DNA of 37,195 nt from Natronolimnohabitans innermongolicus JCM 12255 (GTDB taxonomy: Archaea; Halobacteriota; Halobacteria; Halobacteriales; Natrialbaceae): positions 66,756 to 103,950 of the forward strand of contig NZ_AOHZ01000040.1 in NCBI RefSeq assembly GCF_000337215.1, given 5' to 3'. Below the pieces are notes generated by a model, which saw nothing but the letters and a program-made list of their open reading frames with translations, was not told where the DNA came from and made no database searches. A program made the translations under genes and the position numbers. Of the stretch, positions 1-10,775 are shown piece by piece (the first letter of the stretch is position 1; every line of letters begins with the position of its first letter).

Positions 1-192
1 TTCTCGGCGCTGTCGGTCGACGCGGCGACGTTTACCGCGACGGTCGTCATGCTCGGGACGCCGACGGCCGTCTCGACGTACGTCTTCGCGGCCGAACTCG
101 GCGGCGACGAGGAGTTCGCCTCGCTGAACGTCTTCGCGACGACGCTGGTCTCGGTCGCGACGCTGTTCGTCCTGATCACGCTGCTGACGTGA
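1..192 (+). CDS. AEC-family transporter, C-terminal fragment (5' end outside window)
   Basis: An open frame runs from base 1 to a TGA at 190-192 and gives the last 63 residues of a membrane protein. The visible part has a helix-breaking LGTPTAVSTYVFA stretch, then an acidic loop, then a hydrophobic terminal helix (about the last 20 residues). This matches the C-terminal pair of helices of auxin-efflux-carrier (AEC) permeases, where a T/M-P-T/x-A-V segment precedes the last helix. The substrate cannot be told. The start and most of the protein lie to the left of the window. Family assignment rests on this short piece only. Confidence 0.7.
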   Translation, partial: FSALSVDAATFTATVVMLGTPTAVSTYVFAAELGGDEEFASLNVFATTLVSVATLFVLITLLT

Positions 193-807: not shown

Positions 808-1230
808 CTAATCCTCGCCGTACGCGACCGTCGACGCAGTCGCGTTCTCGGCCTGTCGGGTGTCCTGGCGACTGCACTGGACGACGACCGGCACGTTCGA
901 CTCCACGACGATGCCGTAGTCCCGGCCCAGCGGCGGCGCGTAGGGATCGATCAGGTCGTTGATCCGGACGTGACGGACGCGCTCGGCGGCGACCGAGAGC
1001 GGATACGGGCCCGCCTCGCGGCCGTCCGCGTAGTGGAGGGTCACCTCGAGCGTCGCCATCTCCGCGCCGGGGTTCAACGCGCACAGCTCGTCGCGGCTGA
1101 CCATCTCGGGTTCCGGCCCGGTGCTGTCGACGGGGACGTGGCCGCCGGGAAGCTCCCAGCGCGTCTCGCCGATCGGCGCGTCGTGGTCGGCCTCCGGGTC
1201 CGGTCCCGGCTCGGTCTCGCGTTCGGTCAC
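808..1230 (-). CDS. Sensory-rhodopsin-transducer (ASRT) family protein, copy A
   Basis: A 140-residue soluble beta-rich protein of the Anabaena sensory rhodopsin transducer family (ASRT, PF07100). The family core is visible: an early W-x-x-P-x-G-x-x-P segment (RWELPGGHVP), then STGPEPEM, a GPYP turn, AAERVRHVR, and the C-terminal block ESNVPVVVQ...R-x-D-x-RQAEN. The start is the GTG at 1230-1228; it overlaps the TGA of the preceding oxidase gene in a GTGA, so the two are translationally coupled. It carries about 20 extra acidic N-terminal residues compared with copy B at 2558-2926. No rhodopsin gene is in the window, so a photosensory role is not indicated; family-level work (De Souza and colleagues) proposed small-molecule, probably carbohydrate, binding. 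Confidence 0.85.
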   Translation of the reverse strand: MTERETEPGPDPEADHDAPIGETRWELPGGHVPVDSTGPEPEMVSRDELCALNPGAEMATLEVTLHYADGREAGPYPLSVAAERVRHVRINDLIDPYAPPLGRDYGIVVESNVPVVVQCSRQDTRQAENATASTVAYGED

Positions 1231-2561
1231 GCGTCGCCCACCTCCGCGCCCGAAGCGACGTCGCCCTCGCTCGTCGACGACTCGTCGGTCGCGGCGTCCG
1301 TCGGTTCGGCCCCGCCCTCGAGCAAGGCCTCGAGGTAGTCCGTCATGAACACGCCCTCGGGGTCGAGTTCGCGCCGAATCTCCTGGAACCGATCCCACTC
1401 TGGGTACAGCTCACGCAGCTCCGCGGCCCGCAGGGTGTGTTTCTTCCCCCAGTGGGGTCGGCCGTCGTACTCGCGAAAGAGCGGCTCGATGTCCTCGAAG
1501 TAGTCCCGGTGGTCCAGTTCGGCGTTCTGAATGCACGAGATCGTCATCGCGTCGCGGTCGTACTCCGTCGAGAGCATGGCGTCGTCCGCGGCGACCGTGC
1601 GGACGAGCAGCCGCCAGCCGACGTCGGCCCGCCAGTTCTCGCGGACGCGTTCGCGGACCCGGGAGAAGCACTCGAGGCCGTCTTCGACGGGCAGGGCGTA
1701 CTCCATCTCGTCGAACTCGCGGCCGATGTCGTCGTGTTCGGGGATGGTCTCTTGCCACCAGCCGGTCTGGTTCTCGACGACCGTGGCGTAGGAGAGGTCC
1801 TCGTGGTCGGTGCCGCCGCCGGGCGCGTTGAGCAGCCGCAGTTTCACCTCGTTCGAGCGGGGGTACCAGTAGAAATCGAAGTTGCGGTTCTCCTCGATCA
1901 GCGCCGGGATGTGGTCCTTACACGCCCGCCAGTTCGTACAGTACTCGCGCCGCTGGATCTTGTAGGTCGTCTGCAGGTCGAGTTCGATCTCGGTGAAGAT
2001 CCCGAGCGTTCCCAGCGAGACCTGCGCGGCCCGCAAGAGATCCGGGTCCGTTTCGGCGTCGAACTCCCGGATCTCGCCGGTCCCGGTGACCATCCGGCCG
2101 CCGACGAGCGAGCCCGCGAGGTTCTCGAACTCCGGGCCCGTTCCGTGGGTCCCCGTTCCGAACGCACCCGCGACGGTCTGCATCGAGACGTCGCCGAGAT
2201 TGGGAAGCGCGAGGTTGCGATCGTGAAGCTCCGTGCCGGCCTCCTCGAGCGTCGTCCCGGCGTACAGCGTCGCGGTCTGGCTCTCGGGGTCGCAGTCGAC
2301 GACGCCGGTCATGTTCGTCAGCGAGACGACCACGTCTTCGGTCTCGACGACGGGCGTCCACGAGTGGCCCGCGCCGGCGACGCGGACGCTCTCGCCCTCG
2401 TCGGCGGCCCGCCGAACGATCGCCTGGAGTTCGGACTCGTCTTCGGGCTCGAGGATCCGATCGGGTTCGAACGAGACGCTGCCGGACCAGTTTTGCCACT
2501 CCTCGGCTTCGGTGTCGGTATCGCGCTCGTCGATCGAATCCGGCTCCTGTGCCACGCTCAC
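1227..2561 (-). CDS. FAD-linked sugar-lactone oxidase-like protein (D-arabinono-/L-gulono-lactone oxidase family)
   Basis: A 444-residue flavoprotein of the vanillyl-alcohol-oxidase fold. Residues about 30-190 form the FAD_binding_4 domain: AGAGHSWTP holds His66 at the place where lactone oxidases attach FAD covalently, and GTGTHGTG (about 135-142) is the second FAD motif. The rest matches the ALO domain, ending in the typical GRPHWGKKH block at about residue 375. Relatives oxidise aldono-lactones or alditols and pass electrons to O2 (giving H2O2) or another acceptor; the substrate here is unknown. The start is the GTG at 2561, overlapping the upstream ASRT stop in GTGA; the stop overlaps the next ASRT start in the same way. 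The last 40 residues are an acidic, low-complexity tail. Confidence 0.88.
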   Translation of the reverse strand: MSVAQEPDSIDERDTDTEAEEWQNWSGSVSFEPDRILEPEDESELQAIVRRAADEGESVRVAGAGHSWTPVVETEDVVVSLTNMTGVVDCDPESQTATLYAGTTLEEAGTELHDRNLALPNLGDVSMQTVAGAFGTGTHGTGPEFENLAGSLVGGRMVTGTGEIREFDAETDPDLLRAAQVSLGTLGIFTEIELDLQTTYKIQRREYCTNWRACKDHIPALIEENRNFDFYWYPRSNEVKLRLLNAPGGGTDHEDLSYATVVENQTGWWQETIPEHDDIGREFDEMEYALPVEDGLECFSRVRERVRENWRADVGWRLLVRTVAADDAMLSTEYDRDAMTISCIQNAELDHRDYFEDIEPLFREYDGRPHWGKKHTLRAAELRELYPEWDRFQEIRRELDPEGVFMTDYLEALLEGGAEPTDAATDESSTSEGDVASGAEVGDA

Positions 2562-2926
2562 TCACCCGGGTGTGCGATCGTCGACAGCAGGGCGTTCTCG
2601 GCCTGCCTCGAGTCCAGGCGCGTGTGCTGGCAGACGACGGGCACGTCGGACTCGATCACGCTCGCGAAATCCTCGCCCGTCGGAATCGGCTCGGGATCTT
2701 CGAACTCGTTGAACCGGAAGTGTCGCGTTCGCTCGGCGGGGACGGTCTTCTCGTAGGGACCGATCGGGCCGCGGTCGGTGAAGTAGACCGTGATCTCGAC
2801 GGTCGCGTCCTCGTCGGTCGCGTTCAGCAGACAGACGGTTTCGTGGCTCTCCATCTCCGGTTCCGGGCCGGTGCTCCCTTCGGGGATGTACCCCTCGGGA
2901 ATCGCCCACGTGTGTTTGCCGGTCAT
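2558..2926 (-). CDS. Sensory-rhodopsin-transducer (ASRT) family protein, copy B
   Basis: A 122-residue protein very close in length and sequence layout to Anabaena ASRT (PF07100), a tetrameric beta-sandwich protein. Landmarks are TWAIPEGYIP near the N-terminus, STGPEPEM, the SHETVCLLN strand, DRGPIGPY, VPAERTRHFRFNEF and the end block ESDVPVVCQHTRLDSRQAENALLSTIA. It shares STGPEPEM, GPY, PAER-x-RH and the RQAENA block with copy A, so the two are paralogues, but copy B is nearer the canonical form. It is the first gene of the three-gene minus-strand operon; the ATG is at 2926-2924, with a weak TATA-like GTTATCC (minus strand) around 2962-2970. It is divergent from the catalase gene. Confidence 0.88.
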   Translation of the reverse strand: MTGKHTWAIPEGYIPEGSTGPEPEMESHETVCLLNATDEDATVEITVYFTDRGPIGPYEKTVPAERTRHFRFNEFEDPEPIPTGEDFASVIESDVPVVCQHTRLDSRQAENALLSTIAHPGE

Positions 2927-3472
2927 CGATTCTCACTCGGTTGTACGACACCGGAGACGCGGATAACGCTCCGGCTTGTACGCACAGGCGGCCCTCGAGT
3001 GCGGCGCTCGGCTTCGGACTCCGAACTCGCCGCCCACCTCGAGGCGGTCAGGAATGGCCAGGCTCGAGACGCGCACGGCTAGCCGCCACTCAGCCGCGGC
3101 CGACGACGGTCGGCTGCACTCGAGCGCGAACGGGCGTCTCAAGGTCGTGGCGCTCGAGCGCGACGACACCGTTCCGGCACCGGATTTCGGTCGGACCCGG
3201 CCCCTGCAGGAGACGGGATGACGCTTATCTCGCTTATTCTGGACAGTGCAGTAAGCCGGTCGGCAACGGCTCCGGAGACGGGAGCGGAGACCAGGCGGGA
3301 GGCGTCCGCACGAAGCGGTCGCGTCTCGCCGGTTTCGCCGAACCGCGTCGGCGTTCGGTCGACGTTTCGGCGCTCCTCGAGCGAGGGCGACCGGTCCGAC
3401 GTGCGGTCACGGTACGGGTCACCGGACCTGCGTTCCAGCCATCGATTCGACCCGAGACATCTACTTCCCCAC
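2927..3472. other. 546-bp divergent intergenic region between ASRT operon and catalase
   Basis: No convincing gene is seen. Open frames here encode Arg/Ser-rich strings typical of non-coding high-GC DNA. The AT-richest patch is at about 3222-3240 (CTTATCTCGCTTATTCTGG), a possible promoter element on either strand, but it is far from both start codons. A long 5' leader on the catalase transcript or an unseen small RNA cannot be excluded. No perfect palindrome was found. Confidence 0.45.
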
Positions 3473-5731
3473 ATGACAGACGACGACGCTTCCCACGACG
3501 GACGAACCGACGCGCAGCCACGGGCGACCGACGGCGGAACGGACAAGTCGCGGTCCGACTCGGACTCGGGGCAGGCGGGAACGAGCGACGACGCCGGCGT
3601 CGTCGACGAGTCGAGCAAACAGGACCAGCTCGACGAGGTGCGCGAAAATCCCGAGGGCCAGGACCTGACCTCCGATCACGGCGTCAAGATCAGCGATACG
3701 GACAACTCCCTGAAAGCCGGCGAGCGCGGGCCGACGATCATGGAGGACTTCCACTTCCGGGAGAAGATGACGCAGTTCGACCACGAGTCGATCCCGGAGC
3801 GGGTGGTCCACGCCCGCGGCACCGGCGCGCACGGCTACTTCCAGCCCTACGAGGACCCCGACCTCGGCGACGAGTACGACGACATCGAGGAACTGACGAA
3901 AGCGAAGGTACTGACCGATCCCGACCAGAAGACGCCGGTCTTCACCCGGTTCTCGACCGTCGTCGGCTCGAGGGGGTCCTCGGACACCGTCCGCGACGTT
4001 CGCGGCTTCGCGACGAAGTTCTACACCGAGGAGGGTAACTGGGACCTCGTCGGGAACAACATGCCACCGTTCTTCATCCAGGACGCGATGGAGTTCCCCG
4101 ACCTCGTCCACGCGATCAAACCCGAACCCGACGACGGGATGCCCCAGGCGTCGGCGGCCCACGACACCTTCTGGGACTTCGCCTCTCTCAAACCGGAGAT
4201 CACTCACATGATCATGTGGGTCCTCTCGGGGCGGGCGCTGCCGCGGGCCTATCGGATGATGCAAGGCTTCGGCGTCCACACCTTCCGGCTGGTCAACGAC
4301 GACGGCGAGTCGGTGTTCGTCAAGTTCCACTGGACGCCGAAACTCGGCACTCACCAGCTCGTCTGGGACGAAACGACGAAGCTCTGGGGCAAGGACTCGG
4401 ATTTCAACCGAAAAGGTCTCTATGACGTCATCGAGGAAGGCTACGATCCCGAGTGGGAACTCGGCGTTCAGATCTTCGACGAAGAACAGGCCGAGGAGTT
4501 CGACTTCGACATCCTCGACCCGACGAAGATCGTCCCCGAGACCGAGGTGCCGGTGCGGCCGATCGGGAAGATGGTGCTCAACGAGACGCCGGACAACTTC
4601 TTCGCCGAAACGGAGCAAGTGGCGTTCCACCCCGGCAACGTCGTCCCAGGGATCGACTTCTCGAACGACCCCCTGCTACAGGGTCGACTGTTCTCCTACC
4701 AGGACACCCAGCTCAACCGCTTCGGGAGCGCCAACTGGGACGAGATCCCGATCAATCGGCCCGTCGCCGAGCGCCACAACAACCAGCGCGCCGGCTTCAT
4801 GCGCCAGGAGATCAACGAGGGCAAAGTGTCGTACAAACCCAACTCCATCGGCGACGACGATCCGCAGGAAGTGCCCGAGGAAGAGGGTGGCTACGAGCAC
4901 TACGCCGAGAAAATCTCCGGGAAGAAGATCCGAAATCGAAGCGACAGCTTCGAGGACCACTTCACGCAGGCGCGGCTGTTCTGGAACAGCATGTCCGAGC
5001 CCGAAAAGCAGAATATCGTCGAGGCCGCCCACTTCGAACTCGGCAAGGTCGACCGGATGGAGATCCGCGAGCGGATGGTTTACGACCTCTTCAACAACGT
5101 CGACCACGAGTTCGCCAAACGCGTCGCCGAGGGGATCGGCGTCGAGCCGCCCGAATCACCCGGCGACGAGATGCCGACCCACGACCGGGAGGATCCGTCG
5201 CTCAGCATGGAAAACCGGACTCCGGACACGATCGAGACCCGCAAGATCGCGATGCTAGTCGACGACGGCTTCGACGACGAGCACGTCTCGGCGATTCGAT
5301 CGGCCGTAGAGGACGAGGGCGCCCGGGTCAAGGTCATCTCGAAGCTCCTCGGCGAGACGTCTGGTGCCGACGGCGAGACGGTCGATCCCGACATGCACCA
5401 CGTCGCGGCGGCTTCGGTCTCGTTCGACGCGGTCGTCGTCCCCGGCGGCGACCAGAGCGTCGACGCGCTGCGCCAGCAGGGCGACCCGAAGCACTTCGTC
5501 GCCGAGGCGTTCAAACACTACAAACCGATCGCCGCGGTCGGCGAGGGGACGGAACTGTTCGAGACGGTCGACCTGCCGGACACCGAGATCGCCGACGACG
5601 GCGACCTCGTCTCCGACGCCGGCGTCGTCACCTGTCGCAGCGGCGACCTCGAGGCGTTCGCCGACGCGTTCGTCGACGCCATCGCCGAACACCGCCACTG
5701 GGACCGAAGTCCCGAGGAAGTGCCCGCCTGA
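3473..5731 (+). CDS. katE: Large-subunit (clade 2) haem catalase with C-terminal DJ-1/PfpI-like domain
   Basis: A 752-residue catalase of the HPII/KatE type, breaking H2O2 down to water and O2 in the cytoplasm. The catalytic His is H113 in RVVHARGTGAHG, the distal Asn lies in DLVGNNMPPFF (N195/N196), and the proximal haem Tyr is Y409 in RLFSYQDTQ with R405 beside it. Residues about 555-745 form the extra C-terminal domain of large catalases, resembling class-I glutamine amidotransferase/DJ-1 (RKIAMLVDDGFDDEHV, then AVVVPGGDQSV). The first 55 residues are an acidic, disordered, halophile-type extension. The ATG at 3473 is chosen because the open frame upstream to 3218 is Arg/Ser-rich and non-protein-like. 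The gene is divergent from an FAD oxidase operon that may produce its substrate. Confidence 0.96.
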   Translation: MTDDDASHDGRTDAQPRATDGGTDKSRSDSDSGQAGTSDDAGVVDESSKQDQLDEVRENPEGQDLTSDHGVKISDTDNSLKAGERGPTIMEDFHFREKMTQFDHESIPERVVHARGTGAHGYFQPYEDPDLGDEYDDIEELTKAKVLTDPDQKTPVFTRFSTVVGSRGSSDTVRDVRGFATKFYTEEGNWDLVGNNMPPFFIQDAMEFPDLVHAIKPEPDDGMPQASAAHDTFWDFASLKPEITHMIMWVLSGRALPRAYRMMQGFGVHTFRLVNDDGESVFVKFHWTPKLGTHQLVWDETTKLWGKDSDFNRKGLYDVIEEGYDPEWELGVQIFDEEQAEEFDFDILDPTKIVPETEVPVRPIGKMVLNETPDNFFAETEQVAFHPGNVVPGIDFSNDPLLQGRLFSYQDTQLNRFGSANWDEIPINRPVAERHNNQRAGFMRQEINEGKVSYKPNSIGDDDPQEVPEEEGGYEHYAEKISGKKIRNRSDSFEDHFTQARLFWNSMSEPEKQNIVEAAHFELGKVDRMEIRERMVYDLFNNVDHEFAKRVAEGIGVEPPESPGDEMPTHDREDPSLSMENRTPDTIETRKIAMLVDDGFDDEHVSAIRSAVEDEGARVKVISKLLGETSGADGETVDPDMHHVAAASVSFDAVVVPGGDQSVDALRQQGDPKHFVAEAFKHYKPIAAVGEGTELFETVDLPDTEIADDGDLVSDAGVVTCRSGDLEAFADAFVDAIAEHRHWDRSPEEVPA

Positions 5732-6790: not shown

Positions 6791-7756
6791 CTATCGGAAC
6801 GACGGCAATACGTCCTCGCCGAACGCCTCGATGAACGCGGCCTGATTCGTCGTGACGTTGTGGACGGACACCCGTTCGACGTCGAGGTCGGCGTCGCGCT
6901 CGAGCCACTCGAGGTGGTCCGCGAGGTCGGTCGAGACGCGGACGTTCTCGGCGACGCGCTCCTCGTCGACCGCTGCGGCGGCTTCCTCGAACTCCTCGGG
7001 CGTGCGGATCTCCTGGGTGACCGACCCTGGGATGCAGTTCGGGCCCCACTGCTCGGTCGCCTCCGCGAGGACGGCGTCCTCGTCGTCGCCGTAGGCGTGT
7101 TGGGCCTTCAGATAGACCGGTTTCTCGGGAGCGCCGTCTCGAAACGCCTCGACGCGGGCCGCGTCGGCCTCGTGGTCGGGCGTCGCGATGGTGATCATGC
7201 CGTCGATCCACTCGGCCTCGCCGAGCCACGCCGCGGTTTCCTCGGAGAGCGCGGCCCCGATCAGCGGCGGCGCGGTTTCGGGCCGCGAGTAGAGCTGGGC
7301 CTGCTCGACGTCGATCCGACCGTGATGGGTCACCTCCTCGCCCTCGAACAGCCGACGCATGACGTCGGCGCACTCCTCGAGGCGGGCGTTGCGCTCGCGC
7401 TTGACGGGCCAGTCGACGCCCGTGATCCCCTCGTTCAGTAGCTGTCCGCTACCGATGGCCAGCCAGAATCGCTCGGGGTACATCTCCCGCAGCGTGGCGG
7501 CGCCCTGGGCGATGATCGCGGGATGGTAGCGGTAGCCGGGTGCGTTGACCGTGCCGAAGGTCAGGTCGGTCGCCTCGAGCGCCGAGCCGAGCCACGACCA
7601 GACGAAGCCGGACTCGCCCTGGACTTCGCTCCAGGGGTGGAAGTGGTCCGAGGCCGTCGCGTGATCGAACCCGTTTTCGTCGGCGAGACGGGCGTACTCG
7701 AGGAGGTCGCTCGGCGCGAACTGTTCGTGCGAGACGTGGTATCCGAGTTCGGTCAT
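6791..7756 (-). CDS. F420-dependent LLM-class oxidoreductase (TIGR03557-like)
   Basis: A 321-residue TIM-barrel enzyme of the luciferase-like monooxygenase superfamily. The start MTELGYHVSHEQFAPSDLLEYARLAD, the ASDHFHPW block (about residues 35-42), the SGFVWSWLGSALEAT segment and the ERFWLAIGSGQLLNEGI block (about 95-110) match the subfamily of F420-dependent glucose-6-phosphate-dehydrogenase-like enzymes, which move hydride between a substrate and coenzyme F420. Haloarchaea make F420, which fits. The true substrate is unknown; relatives act on sugars, alcohols or secondary metabolites. Length is normal. No operon partner is evident: the genes on both sides are more than 100 bases away. Confidence 0.88.
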   Translation of the reverse strand: MTELGYHVSHEQFAPSDLLEYARLADENGFDHATASDHFHPWSEVQGESGFVWSWLGSALEATDLTFGTVNAPGYRYHPAIIAQGAATLREMYPERFWLAIGSGQLLNEGITGVDWPVKRERNARLEECADVMRRLFEGEEVTHHGRIDVEQAQLYSRPETAPPLIGAALSEETAAWLGEAEWIDGMITIATPDHEADAARVEAFRDGAPEKPVYLKAQHAYGDDEDAVLAEATEQWGPNCIPGSVTQEIRTPEEFEEAAAAVDEERVAENVRVSTDLADHLEWLERDADLDVERVSVHNVTTNQAAFIEAFGEDVLPSFR

Positions 7757-8440: not shown

Positions 8441-8538
8441 ATCGGACGTTCGGACGCGGCATCCGTAACCTCGCTGCCTGAACCGGCACCCGCGACTCGA
8501 GGTGCGATCGATACTGGAACTCGAGGGACGCGAACGCG

Positions 8539-8546
8539 ATACTTTT
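8539..8546 (+). promoter_or_regulatory. TATA-like box of the bax1 gene
   Basis: ATACTTTT stands out in GC-rich sequence and is centred about 31 bases before the ATG at 8574, the spacing expected for a leaderless or near-leaderless haloarchaeal transcript. It supports the 8574 start over the upstream in-frame ATG at 8502. Confidence 0.55.
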
Positions 8547-8573
8547 GCCCGTCCCGGCCCGATATCGACGCGG

Positions 8574-10169
8574 ATGCTGACGAAGGACCTGCTGCGCGTC
8601 TCGCGGGCCGGAGGCGGCTATCACCTCCGGTTCGCCGACCGCGAGCACCGCCCCCTCGCCGCGCGCGTCATCGGCACCTACCAGGGCCACGTCGGCGAGA
8701 CGCGCGGCGCCCTCGAGACCGCCCTGACCGATCTGGAGCGCGACGCTGACGACTTCAAACTCGTCCGCGGGCTCTCGGCGCTGCTCGAGCGCGACGCCGA
8801 TTTCGAGACGGACGCGACACTCGATCCCGAACGCGCTCGAAAGGCGGCGTTCGAGGCCGCCGAAGCCGTCGGCGTCGTCGACGCGGACGAGCGGACGATG
8901 GCGCTCGTCCGCGCCGGCGAGTCGCTTGGCGTCTCCGCGGACGACCTCGCGGATTCCCTGTACGCCGACCTCGAGGAACGGCAGGTCCTCGCCGACCTGC
9001 AGTCGCGCTGGGAGCCGGACGACCTGGTCGCCCAGTACAACCTCTCGCTCGCACAGACCGCGCTGTTCGACGCGACCGAGTTGCGGGTTCGCTCGAGCGA
9101 TCCGAAGGCGCTGGTGTCGGCGATCAAGCGCCTGCGGCTGATGTACGAGATCCGGCGACTGGATGCTGGAGCGAACGACGGTAGTGGCGCCGACCCCGGA
9201 ATCGCCGAACGCGAGGTGATCGTCACCGGCCCAACCCACCTCTTTCGTGCCACCCGTCGGTACGGCACGCGATTCGCTCGCCTGCTGCGAACGGTCGCGG
9301 CAGCCGAGGAGTGGCGCCTCGAGGCGACGATCGACGACCGCGGAACCGAGCGGACGCTCTCGCTCTCCCAGGCGGACCCCGTCCGCGTTCCCGACGCCGA
9401 CCCCGTCGCCGAGGTCAGCTTCGACAGCGCCGTCGAGGCCGACTTCGCCGGTCGGTTCTCGACGCTCGACCTCGAGTGGGACCTCGTGCGCGAACCCGAA
9501 CCGCTCGCGACGGGAACGCGGGTGATGATCCCCGATTTCGCGTTCGACTACGAACACGGCGGTCCCGACATCGACGCAGTCGATTCGAGAGCAGCGAGCG
9601 CCTCGCGCGACCGCGGGTTCCGCGTCTACTTCGAGATCATGGGCTTTTGGACCCCCGAGTACGTCGAGAAGAAGCTCGCCCAGCTCGAGGGTCTCGAGGA
9701 CGTCGAACTCGTCGTCGCCGTCGACGAGTCGCTGGGCGTCGGCGCGGAGATCGCGGCCCGCGACTTCCGGGCGATCCCCTACGACGGAACGGTGCCGATG
9801 AAAGACGTCGCCGCAGTCCTTCGGGAGTACGAACGCCAACTCGTCGCCGAGAGCGCCGCCTCGCTGCCGGAGGAACTGCGTCCCGACGAGGACGCCCTCT
9901 CCCTCGAGTCCCTCGCTGGCCGTCACGGCGTCAGCGAGGACGCGCTGGCCGACGTGGCGTTTCCCGCCCACGAGCTCGTGGGCCGAACGCTCGTTCGGCC
10001 GGCGCTCCTCGAGTCGCTCGCCGCGGACCTCGAGGCCGGCATGGACCTCGCGGACGCCGAGGACGCGCTCGAGGCCGTCGGAATCAGCGACTCGAGTGCG
10101 GTGCTCTCGGAGCTGGGCTATCGCGTCGAGTGGGAGGGACTGGCCGGCGGGACGCTCGTCGAACGGTAG
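8574..10169 (+). CDS. bax1: Bax1 (DUF790) XPB-associated structure-specific endonuclease
   Basis: A 531-residue protein of the DUF790 family, known from Sulfolobus and Archaeoglobus as Bax1, the partner and nuclease of the XPB helicase in archaeal nucleotide excision repair. The N-terminus (MLTKDLLRVSRAGGGYHLRFAD) is the family start. The nuclease part near the C-terminal half shows a PD-(D/E)xK-like core: D321 in MIPDFAF and E354 in VYFEIMGFWTPEYVEKKL, with GFWTPEYVEKK highly typical of the family. A 50-residue helical C-terminal part follows. The first 24 codons of the longer frame (from 8502) overlap the TATA-like box and are left out. No XPB helicase gene is in the window, although the two are often adjacent. 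Confidence 0.88.
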   Translation: MLTKDLLRVSRAGGGYHLRFADREHRPLAARVIGTYQGHVGETRGALETALTDLERDADDFKLVRGLSALLERDADFETDATLDPERARKAAFEAAEAVGVVDADERTMALVRAGESLGVSADDLADSLYADLEERQVLADLQSRWEPDDLVAQYNLSLAQTALFDATELRVRSSDPKALVSAIKRLRLMYEIRRLDAGANDGSGADPGIAEREVIVTGPTHLFRATRRYGTRFARLLRTVAAAEEWRLEATIDDRGTERTLSLSQADPVRVPDADPVAEVSFDSAVEADFAGRFSTLDLEWDLVREPEPLATGTRVMIPDFAFDYEHGGPDIDAVDSRAASASRDRGFRVYFEIMGFWTPEYVEKKLAQLEGLEDVELVVAVDESLGVGAEIAARDFRAIPYDGTVPMKDVAAVLREYERQLVAESAASLPEELRPDEDALSLESLAGRHGVSEDALADVAFPAHELVGRTLVRPALLESLAADLEAGMDLADAEDALEAVGISDSSAVLSELGYRVEWEGLAGGTLVER

Positions 10170-10238: not shown

Positions 10239-10775
10239 ATGCTTACCGAACCGATCGAAGAGGCGTTGAACGAACAGCTCAACGCCGAACTGTACTCGTC
10301 GTATCTCTACCTCTCGATGGCGGCCTACTACGAGGACGAAGGACTCCCCGGGTTCGCGTCGTGGATGCGTGCGCAGGCCGACGAGGAGAACGAGCACGCG
10401 ATGCGAATCTACGATTACGTCATCGAACGCGACGGGCGCGTCACGCTGGATAGTATCGACAGTCCACCGGCGCAGTGGGCCAGTCCGGCCGATGCCTTCG
10501 AGGCGGCGTACGAACACGAAGTCGAAATCACGGCGATGATCGACGACCTCGTCGCGCTCGCTCGAGAAGAAACCGACAACGCGACGGAGAACATGCTCCA
10601 GTGGTTCGTCGCCGAGCAGGTCGAGGAAGAGGCGACGGCACAGGGTATCCTCGACAAACTGAAACACGTCGGGGACGACGGTCCCGGCCTGCTGATGATC
10701 GATCAGGAACTCGGACAGCGCGGCGGTGGTGGGGACGAGGCGGACGATATCGATGTATTCGAGTCCGGGCCGTAG
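10239..10775 (+). CDS. ftn: Ferritin (FtnA-type iron storage protein)
   Basis: A 178-residue four-helix-bundle ferritin. The ferroxidase-centre ligands sit at exactly the places seen in bacterial FtnA: E17, E50, H53, E94, Q127 and E130, with Y24 beside the site. It oxidises Fe(II) with O2 or H2O2 and stores Fe(III) in a 24-subunit shell in the cytoplasm. The C-terminus ends in a Gly- and acid-rich tail (about residues 160-178) not found in bacterial FtnA. A TATA-like GGTAATG at about 10207-10213 is 29 bases before the ATG. The gene stands alone; a hairpin follows in the convergent spacer. Confidence 0.93.
   Translation: MLTEPIEEALNEQLNAELYSSYLYLSMAAYYEDEGLPGFASWMRAQADEENEHAMRIYDYVIERDGRVTLDSIDSPPAQWASPADAFEAAYEHEVEITAMIDDLVALAREETDNATENMLQWFVAEQVEEEATAQGILDKLKHVGDDGPGLLMIDQELGQRGGGGDEADDIDVFESGP

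Follow-up and report, generated by a model that had tools for sequence, protein, structure and literature searches.

What do homologues of the Anabaena sensory rhodopsin transducer (ASRT) do in an operon whose middle gene encodes an oxidase? The role of ASRT proteins outside Anabaena has been an open question since 2003-2009, and a locus of the haloarchaeon Natronolimnohabitans innermongolicus JCM 12255 raises it in concrete form. The initial annotation of this locus, which we analysed within a stretch of 37,195 nucleotides (hereafter the window), placed an oxidase between two ASRT-family proteins, and the open reading frames re-derived from the window sequence agree with it: ASRT_A (2926..2558; ATG start, 122 aa), OX (2561..1227; GTG start, 444 aa) and ASRT_B (1230..808; GTG start, 140 aa) follow one another in this order on the minus strand. 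Both junctions are, as had been noted, 4-nt GTGA overlaps of start and stop, at 2558-2561 between ASRT_A and OX and at 1227-1230 between OX and ASRT_B. The two outer proteins are full-length matches to PF07100 (Pfam; gathering cut-off 25), with E=1.5e-55 and 186.7 bits for the beta-sandwich protein ASRT_A and E=1.3e-43 and 148.2 bits for ASRT_B; ASRT_A also matches PDB 2ii7 at E=3.5e-52.

In the Anabaena ASR/ASRT system (PDB 2II7) the transducer, a full-length homologue of ASRT_A that also groups with it, shares its operon with a rhodopsin partner; here the partner is an oxidase, no rhodopsin lies within the locus and none was seen beside ASRT_A relatives. The annotated absence of a nearby rhodopsin is thus borne out, and light sensing was dropped as an explanation on this ground. 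The single Bac_rhodopsin-family gene found in the genome (G000:C14:54998-55669) is on another contig than the window (C40), far from the ASRT genes.

To see how far the arrangement extends, one can look at relatives of the oxidase. A scan of GTDB genomes seeded with OX gave 50 loci, from which we excluded L081, a fragmentary distant paralogue, and L040, whose contig ends just after OX. A type-B ASRT (as defined below) lies directly 3' of OX on the same strand in all 48 remaining relatives, each with downstream room, and the overlap is exactly 4 nt in 24 of them; because OX alone was the seed, this linkage to ASRT was obtained independently. The hosts span about ten phyla, including archaea (Natrialbaceae), Bacteroidota, Alpha-, Beta- and Gammaproteobacteria, Myxococcota, Chloroflexota, Actinomycetota, Armatimonadota and others, and Deinococcus deserti (Deinococcota) adds a further phylum with the OX-ASRT unit. 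Of the 48 loci, 20 have a second ASRT immediately 5' of OX, 5 have one nearby in convergent orientation and 1 has it downstream; since about half of the loci lack ASRT_A beside OX, it is not needed in cis. No natural fusion of OX and ASRT, which would come close to proving contact, occurs among 49 loci, and this counts against a complex of the two.

A census of 391 halobacterial genomes gave the same picture. ASRT genes are present in 41 genomes and full-length OX (at least 633 bits; next match 427 bits) in 17, with an ASRT directly downstream in 17/17 by comparison of coordinates. Of these 17, 14 have ASRT_A directly upstream; the other 3 (G032, G313 and G339) have it elsewhere, with the OX-ASRT_B pair on a different contig. 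No ASRT_B without OX was seen among the 391 genomes, and ASRT_A alone is common. All plasmid matches to OX with at least 44% identity whose neighbourhoods were inspected carry an ASRT (Natrialba magadii pNMAG01, Natrononativus, Deinococcus deserti, Sinorhizobium); no ASRT was found in the neighbourhoods of six sampled paralogues at 37% identity or less, nor of a haloarchaeal paralogue at 41% (L105). The gene order is therefore not peculiar to one genome, and its retention well outside the source genome supports the annotated view of the trio as one functional module. The 17/17 and 48/48 linkage rules out chance adjacency, and a sequencing artefact is ruled out by the repetition of the pattern in dozens of independent assemblies.

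Two kinds of irregular locus were also seen. At L059 5962-7571, L065 5959-7595 and L076 6007-7589 the two genes OX and ASRT_B share 80-200 nt, read in different frames, and the OX stop lies deep within the ASRT_B gene; these are either assembly errors or genuine long overlaps. Apparently broken ASRT genes, split over different frames or interrupted by an in-frame TGA, occur at G052:C1:268843-269390, G272:C3:83353-83547 and G321:C12:74508-74858, and look like recent losses of type A.

The oxidase and its active site

OX combines FAD_binding_4 (E=1.3e-27) and ALO (E=1e-39) domains (Pfam) with an HWxK motif, which makes it a member of the VAO/ALO flavoproteins. Among NCBIfam models it exceeds the cut-off of TIGR01679, a generic FAD-linked oxidoreductase family (350.1 bits vs 292.25), misses that of the sugar 1,4-lactone oxidase TIGR01678 (195.9 vs 396.8 bits) and stays well under that of plant GLDHase. 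The best PDB matches of its AlphaFold2 model (pLDDT 86) are the alditol oxidases 8OT8 and 2VFR (AldO), with TM ~0.8, and the fold is also common to L-galactono-1,4-lactone dehydrogenase (8QMY).

An alignment of 49 ASRT-linked oxidases shows H66, G123, R321 and H370-W371-x-K373 to be invariant and the motif RNFDFYWYPR nearly so. H66, in a GHS motif at the flavin-linking position (49/49), is the histidine expected for covalent FAD. G123 (49/49) occupies the oxygen gatekeeper position and aligns with Ala113 of galactonolactone dehydrogenase (GALDH) and with the equivalent Ala of AldO; Gly or Pro at this position marks most oxidases, a rule that has exceptions (PMC11505616).

The most telling change concerns the Glu of the E-x-R pair, which is replaced by L319 in OX and by an invariant Leu in 53/53 ASRT-linked oxidases (49 loci plus added plasmid copies). 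This Glu contacts the substrate in AldO and GALDH. AldO and 8OT8 have Glu here, and seven OX paralogues outside the ASRT-linked group retain Glu or Gln; OX thus lacks the active-site Glu of sugar 1,4-lactone and alditol oxidases. In a quick tree with long branches, the ASRT-linked enzymes form one side of a branch separating them from the paralogues (SH-aLRT 99). OX shares the R-T...HWGK active-site elements with AldO, 8OT8 and 8QMY and the covalent-FAD His with AldO and 8OT8; it differs from all three in the Leu, in a gatekeeper Gly instead of Ala, in being always paired with ASRT_B, and in the RNFDFYWYPR and WRxLxR motifs, which are unique to it in this comparison.

The initial annotation had described OX as sugar-lactone-oxidase-like. 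The likeness holds for the ALO fold, the HWxK motif and the flavin-linking His; the exceptionless change from Glu to Leu makes the label "sugar-lactone oxidase" doubtful, and the TIGR01678 score speaks against it as well. The fold and a probable O2 reactivity of OX are thus supported; its substrate label is not.

Two ASRT types and their neighbours

A maximum-likelihood tree of 106 ASRTs (124 columns) places the 49 downstream copies on one side of a branch with support 100/99 and every upstream, convergent, solo and Anabaena ASRT on the other; we call these types B and A. ASRT_A and ASRT_B lie across this branch, which confirms that they are different paralogues, as had been proposed. With only 124 columns the inner order of the tree is unsure, and the A/B split appears in 100% of bootstrap trees; on this phylogenetic evidence, types A and B are ancient paralogues.

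The two types differ in their predicted ligand pocket. The family-level study of De Souza, Iyer and Aravind, the source of the sugar-binding proposal to which the annotation had referred, proposed a ligand signature, SHEshChhN; in 1NC7 a diol is contacted by its His and its Cys (PMC2739507). ASRT_A has this signature intact (SHETVCLLN); in ASRT_B (SRDELCALN) the His is lost. The same holds more widely: upstream type-A copies keep the His in 33/33 and the Cys in 32/33 cases and solo copies keep both in 17/17, while type B has the His in 19/49 (Arg in 19), an Asp after the His position in 45/49 and the Cys in 17/49. To our knowledge, the ethanediol in 1NC7 is the sole ligand shown for any ASRT. 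Type B has a conserved motif of its own, N-D-L-I-x-P-x-A-x-P-L (NDLIDPYAPPL in ASRT_B), and the AlphaFold2 model of ASRT_B (pLDDT 83) is an ASRT beta-sandwich with 2ii8 and 1nc7 as best PDB matches. The predicted ligand pocket is thus, by its signature residues, lost in most type-B lineages and kept in type A. Of the suggestion that both ASRT subunits bind substrate, the part concerning ASRT_A remains tenable; the ASRT_B family keeps neither residue reliably.

Flanking open reading frames were clustered and cluster representatives scanned for families. In the window, an LLM-class flavoprotein gene (7756..6791, minus strand; TIGR03885, 430.7 bits vs cut-off 398.7) has no second copy above cut-off in the genome, an HPII-type long catalase gene (3473..5731, plus strand) is divergent from the trio, and the C-terminal end of a convergent AEC-family transporter gene (1..192, plus strand) represents a conserved neighbour in Natrialbaceae. 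Elsewhere, the TIGR03885 flavoprotein is near the module in some two dozen loci spread over many phyla, TreS-like GH13 enzymes in Sinorhizobium, Steroidobacter, Salinimicrobium, Salegentibacter and Nitrosomonas, trehalase-like GH15 enzymes in Natronobiforma, Natronosalvus, Myxococcota, Thermoleophilia and others, and the AEC transporter in Myxococcota as well as Natrialbaceae; DUF2721 is another recurring neighbour. A catalase gene accompanies the unit in L036, L077 and L104 too, a recurrence limited to a few Natrialbaceae; the enzyme fits H2O2 formation by OX.

The LLM flavoprotein is found in 44 of the 391 halobacterial genomes and in 17/17 of those with OX (p ~3e-18, not corrected for kinship). 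In G254, G020, G062 and G105, and also in G166, a genome without OX, its gene is found immediately or a short way 5' of ASRT_A, an arrangement which suggests that LLM is the companion of ASRT_A, and OX that of ASRT_B. Inspection by eye showed no consistent partner of solo type-A ASRTs in haloarchaea, except LLM in L103.

Two further observations concern these neighbourhoods. Near the catalase gene, a DUF790/Bax1-like endonuclease gene (8502-10169, plus strand) lies beside a ferritin gene (10239-10775), possibly as a stress island. At L062 3815-5467 a gene beside the module encodes a conserved protein, about 550 aa long and matching no Pfam or NCBIfam family, with relatives in L051, L052, L053 and L074; its hosts are Bacteroidales, Myxococcales and Nitrosospira.

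What the ASRT proteins may do

The reading we prefer, with a probability of about one half, makes ASRT_B a partner subunit of the oxidase and assigns to ASRT_A the part of sugar sensor in a glucoside-oxidation pathway, the three genes encoding one enzyme module with its own regulators. Recurrence of the unit in about ten phyla argues that small ASRTs are probably enzyme partners or regulators and not light-signal transducers. OX would be a cytoplasmic, covalently flavinylated and probably O2-reducing, hence H2O2-forming, oxidase of a hydroxylated, sugar-derived substrate other than a classical alditol or aldonolactone. ASRT_B, as its obligate beta-sandwich partner made by coupled translation, would most likely bind OX in a physical complex and control or stabilise it. 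ASRT_A, with its predicted sugar pocket, would be the ligand-sensing paralogue and may link the OX/ASRT_B pair to the LLM flavoenzyme and to the alpha-glucoside enzymes (TreS-like GH13, trehalase-like GH15). ASRT is a tetramer (PMC2739507), and binding of a sugar or related metabolite to ASRT_A could be relayed to OX through A/B homo- or hetero-tetramers, gating the oxidation of a glucoside-derived substrate. The neighbouring catalase would remove H2O2 and the AEC-type carrier would move an organic-acid product or substrate; the pathway most likely oxidises a product of alpha-glucoside metabolism.

A bolder version is rather less likely: ASRT_B would be the first known regulatory subunit of an ALO-family oxidase, ASRT_A/ASRT_B hetero-oligomers would ligand-gate OX, and the light-signalling ASRT of Anabaena would be a later re-use of type A. 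If true, this would amount to trans-acting, sugar-responsive allosteric control of a flavo-oxidase common to archaea and bacteria.

Among the alternatives, the one that survives best, unlikely as we hold it to be, is that the operon is controlled by its own ASRTs, chiefly type A, acting as DNA-binding regulators, so that their link to OX would be regulatory and not structural. It draws on a 27-bp element, YTGMGSSTACARGCC-N5-GTTATCC (2987..2961, minus strand, 34 nt before the ASRT_A start), which was found by aligning the DNA 5' of ASRT_A among relatives. With up to 3 mismatches allowed, the element has a single match in the 4.6 Mb genome, and all 16 sites with at most 1 mismatch in 125 Natrialbaceae genomes precede ASRT_A (solo copies included) or OX-first operons, at 23-35 nt from the gene start. 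Binding and looping of promoter DNA have been reported for Anabaena ASRT, type A by our tree (PMC8660804, PMC3198991), so autoregulation through the element is possible. The element may, however, be a plain conserved promoter, with GTTATCC at about -25 to -40, and it also heads OX operons without ASRT_A. Were GTTATCC to occupy the TATA-box place for a leaderless mRNA, the 15-bp upstream part would then be a gene-specific operator. Moreover, ASRT is an eight-stranded beta-sandwich with no known DNA-binding motif, and regulation of this kind leaves the restriction of type B to OX and the stop/start overlaps unexplained. Two further sites, with two mismatches each, at G105:C1:9303-9329 and G404:C7:102813-102839, were not linked to an ASRT gene in this analysis and are possible other regulon members.

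Somewhat less probable again is a role of ASRT_B in the assembly or stability of OX (folding, FAD loading, solubility) without ligand-dependent control. Translational coupling, the one-to-one presence with OX and the degenerate pocket of type B would all suit such a factor, but ALO-fold paralogues with the same covalent-FAD His work without ASRT (AldO in the PDB), which makes a general flavinylation role unlikely, and the frequent type-A partner would be left unexplained. Mere co-transcription, in which oxidase and ASRTs would share a sugar but never meet, ASRT serving other enzymes as a free sugar buffer or sensor inside the cell, seems the least probable: type A does occur without OX beside LLM (G166) and ASRTs accompany many different sugar operons (PMC2739507), but an OX-type B pairing without exception over about ten phyla, with overlapping junctions, is more than most co-regulated pairs keep.

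Relation to described systems

That the trio has no described function, as the annotation put it, is true of the trio as such; a publication of 2009 already contains both the sugar-sensor proposal and operons that combine ASRT with a FAD-dependent oxidoreductase. The 2009 work, on the same domain family PF07100, found stand-alone ASRT-like (ASRAH) proteins in sugar operons, some with TPP enzymes or amylases, and treated the family as a single group in which the SHEshChhN pocket is nearly absolutely conserved (PMC2739507). Our analysis, in contrast, sets apart an OX-bound type B with a degenerate pocket, whose pairing with one oxidase clade is obligate in the sample. This pairing and the A/B split with pocket loss in B appear to be new and, as far as the literature searched shows, so are the Glu-to-Leu change, the cross-domain LLM/glycosidase context and the dedicated upstream element. 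No paper was found by the locus tags SMb20095-98 of the Sinorhizobium meliloti trio, nor any naming both "rhodopsin transducer" and "lactone oxidase".

An enzyme clade never found without one ASRT type offers a concrete partner candidate for ASRT function, and sensor-like (A) can now be separated from oxidase-bound (B) paralogues. The surroundings point to a conserved, uncharacterised oxidation pathway with two flavoenzymes and trehalose/maltose-type glycosidases across bacteria and archaea. For the proteins described here, the automatic names "D-arabinono-1,4-lactone oxidase" and "sensory rhodopsin transducer" are misleading.

One of the closest described systems is the treS cluster on S. meliloti pSymB. 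Its gene order is pyruvate-oxidase-like TPP enzyme, ASRT, OX, ASRT, TreS-like enzyme and TIGR03885 flavoprotein, so that the trio is directly 5' of the TreS-like gene. The name treS has been given to smb20099 (PMC4960864), which by gene order would be the gene after the trio. The haloarchaeal window differs in having no TreS and in the position of the LLM gene, which lies 3.9 kb off with the catalase gene between.
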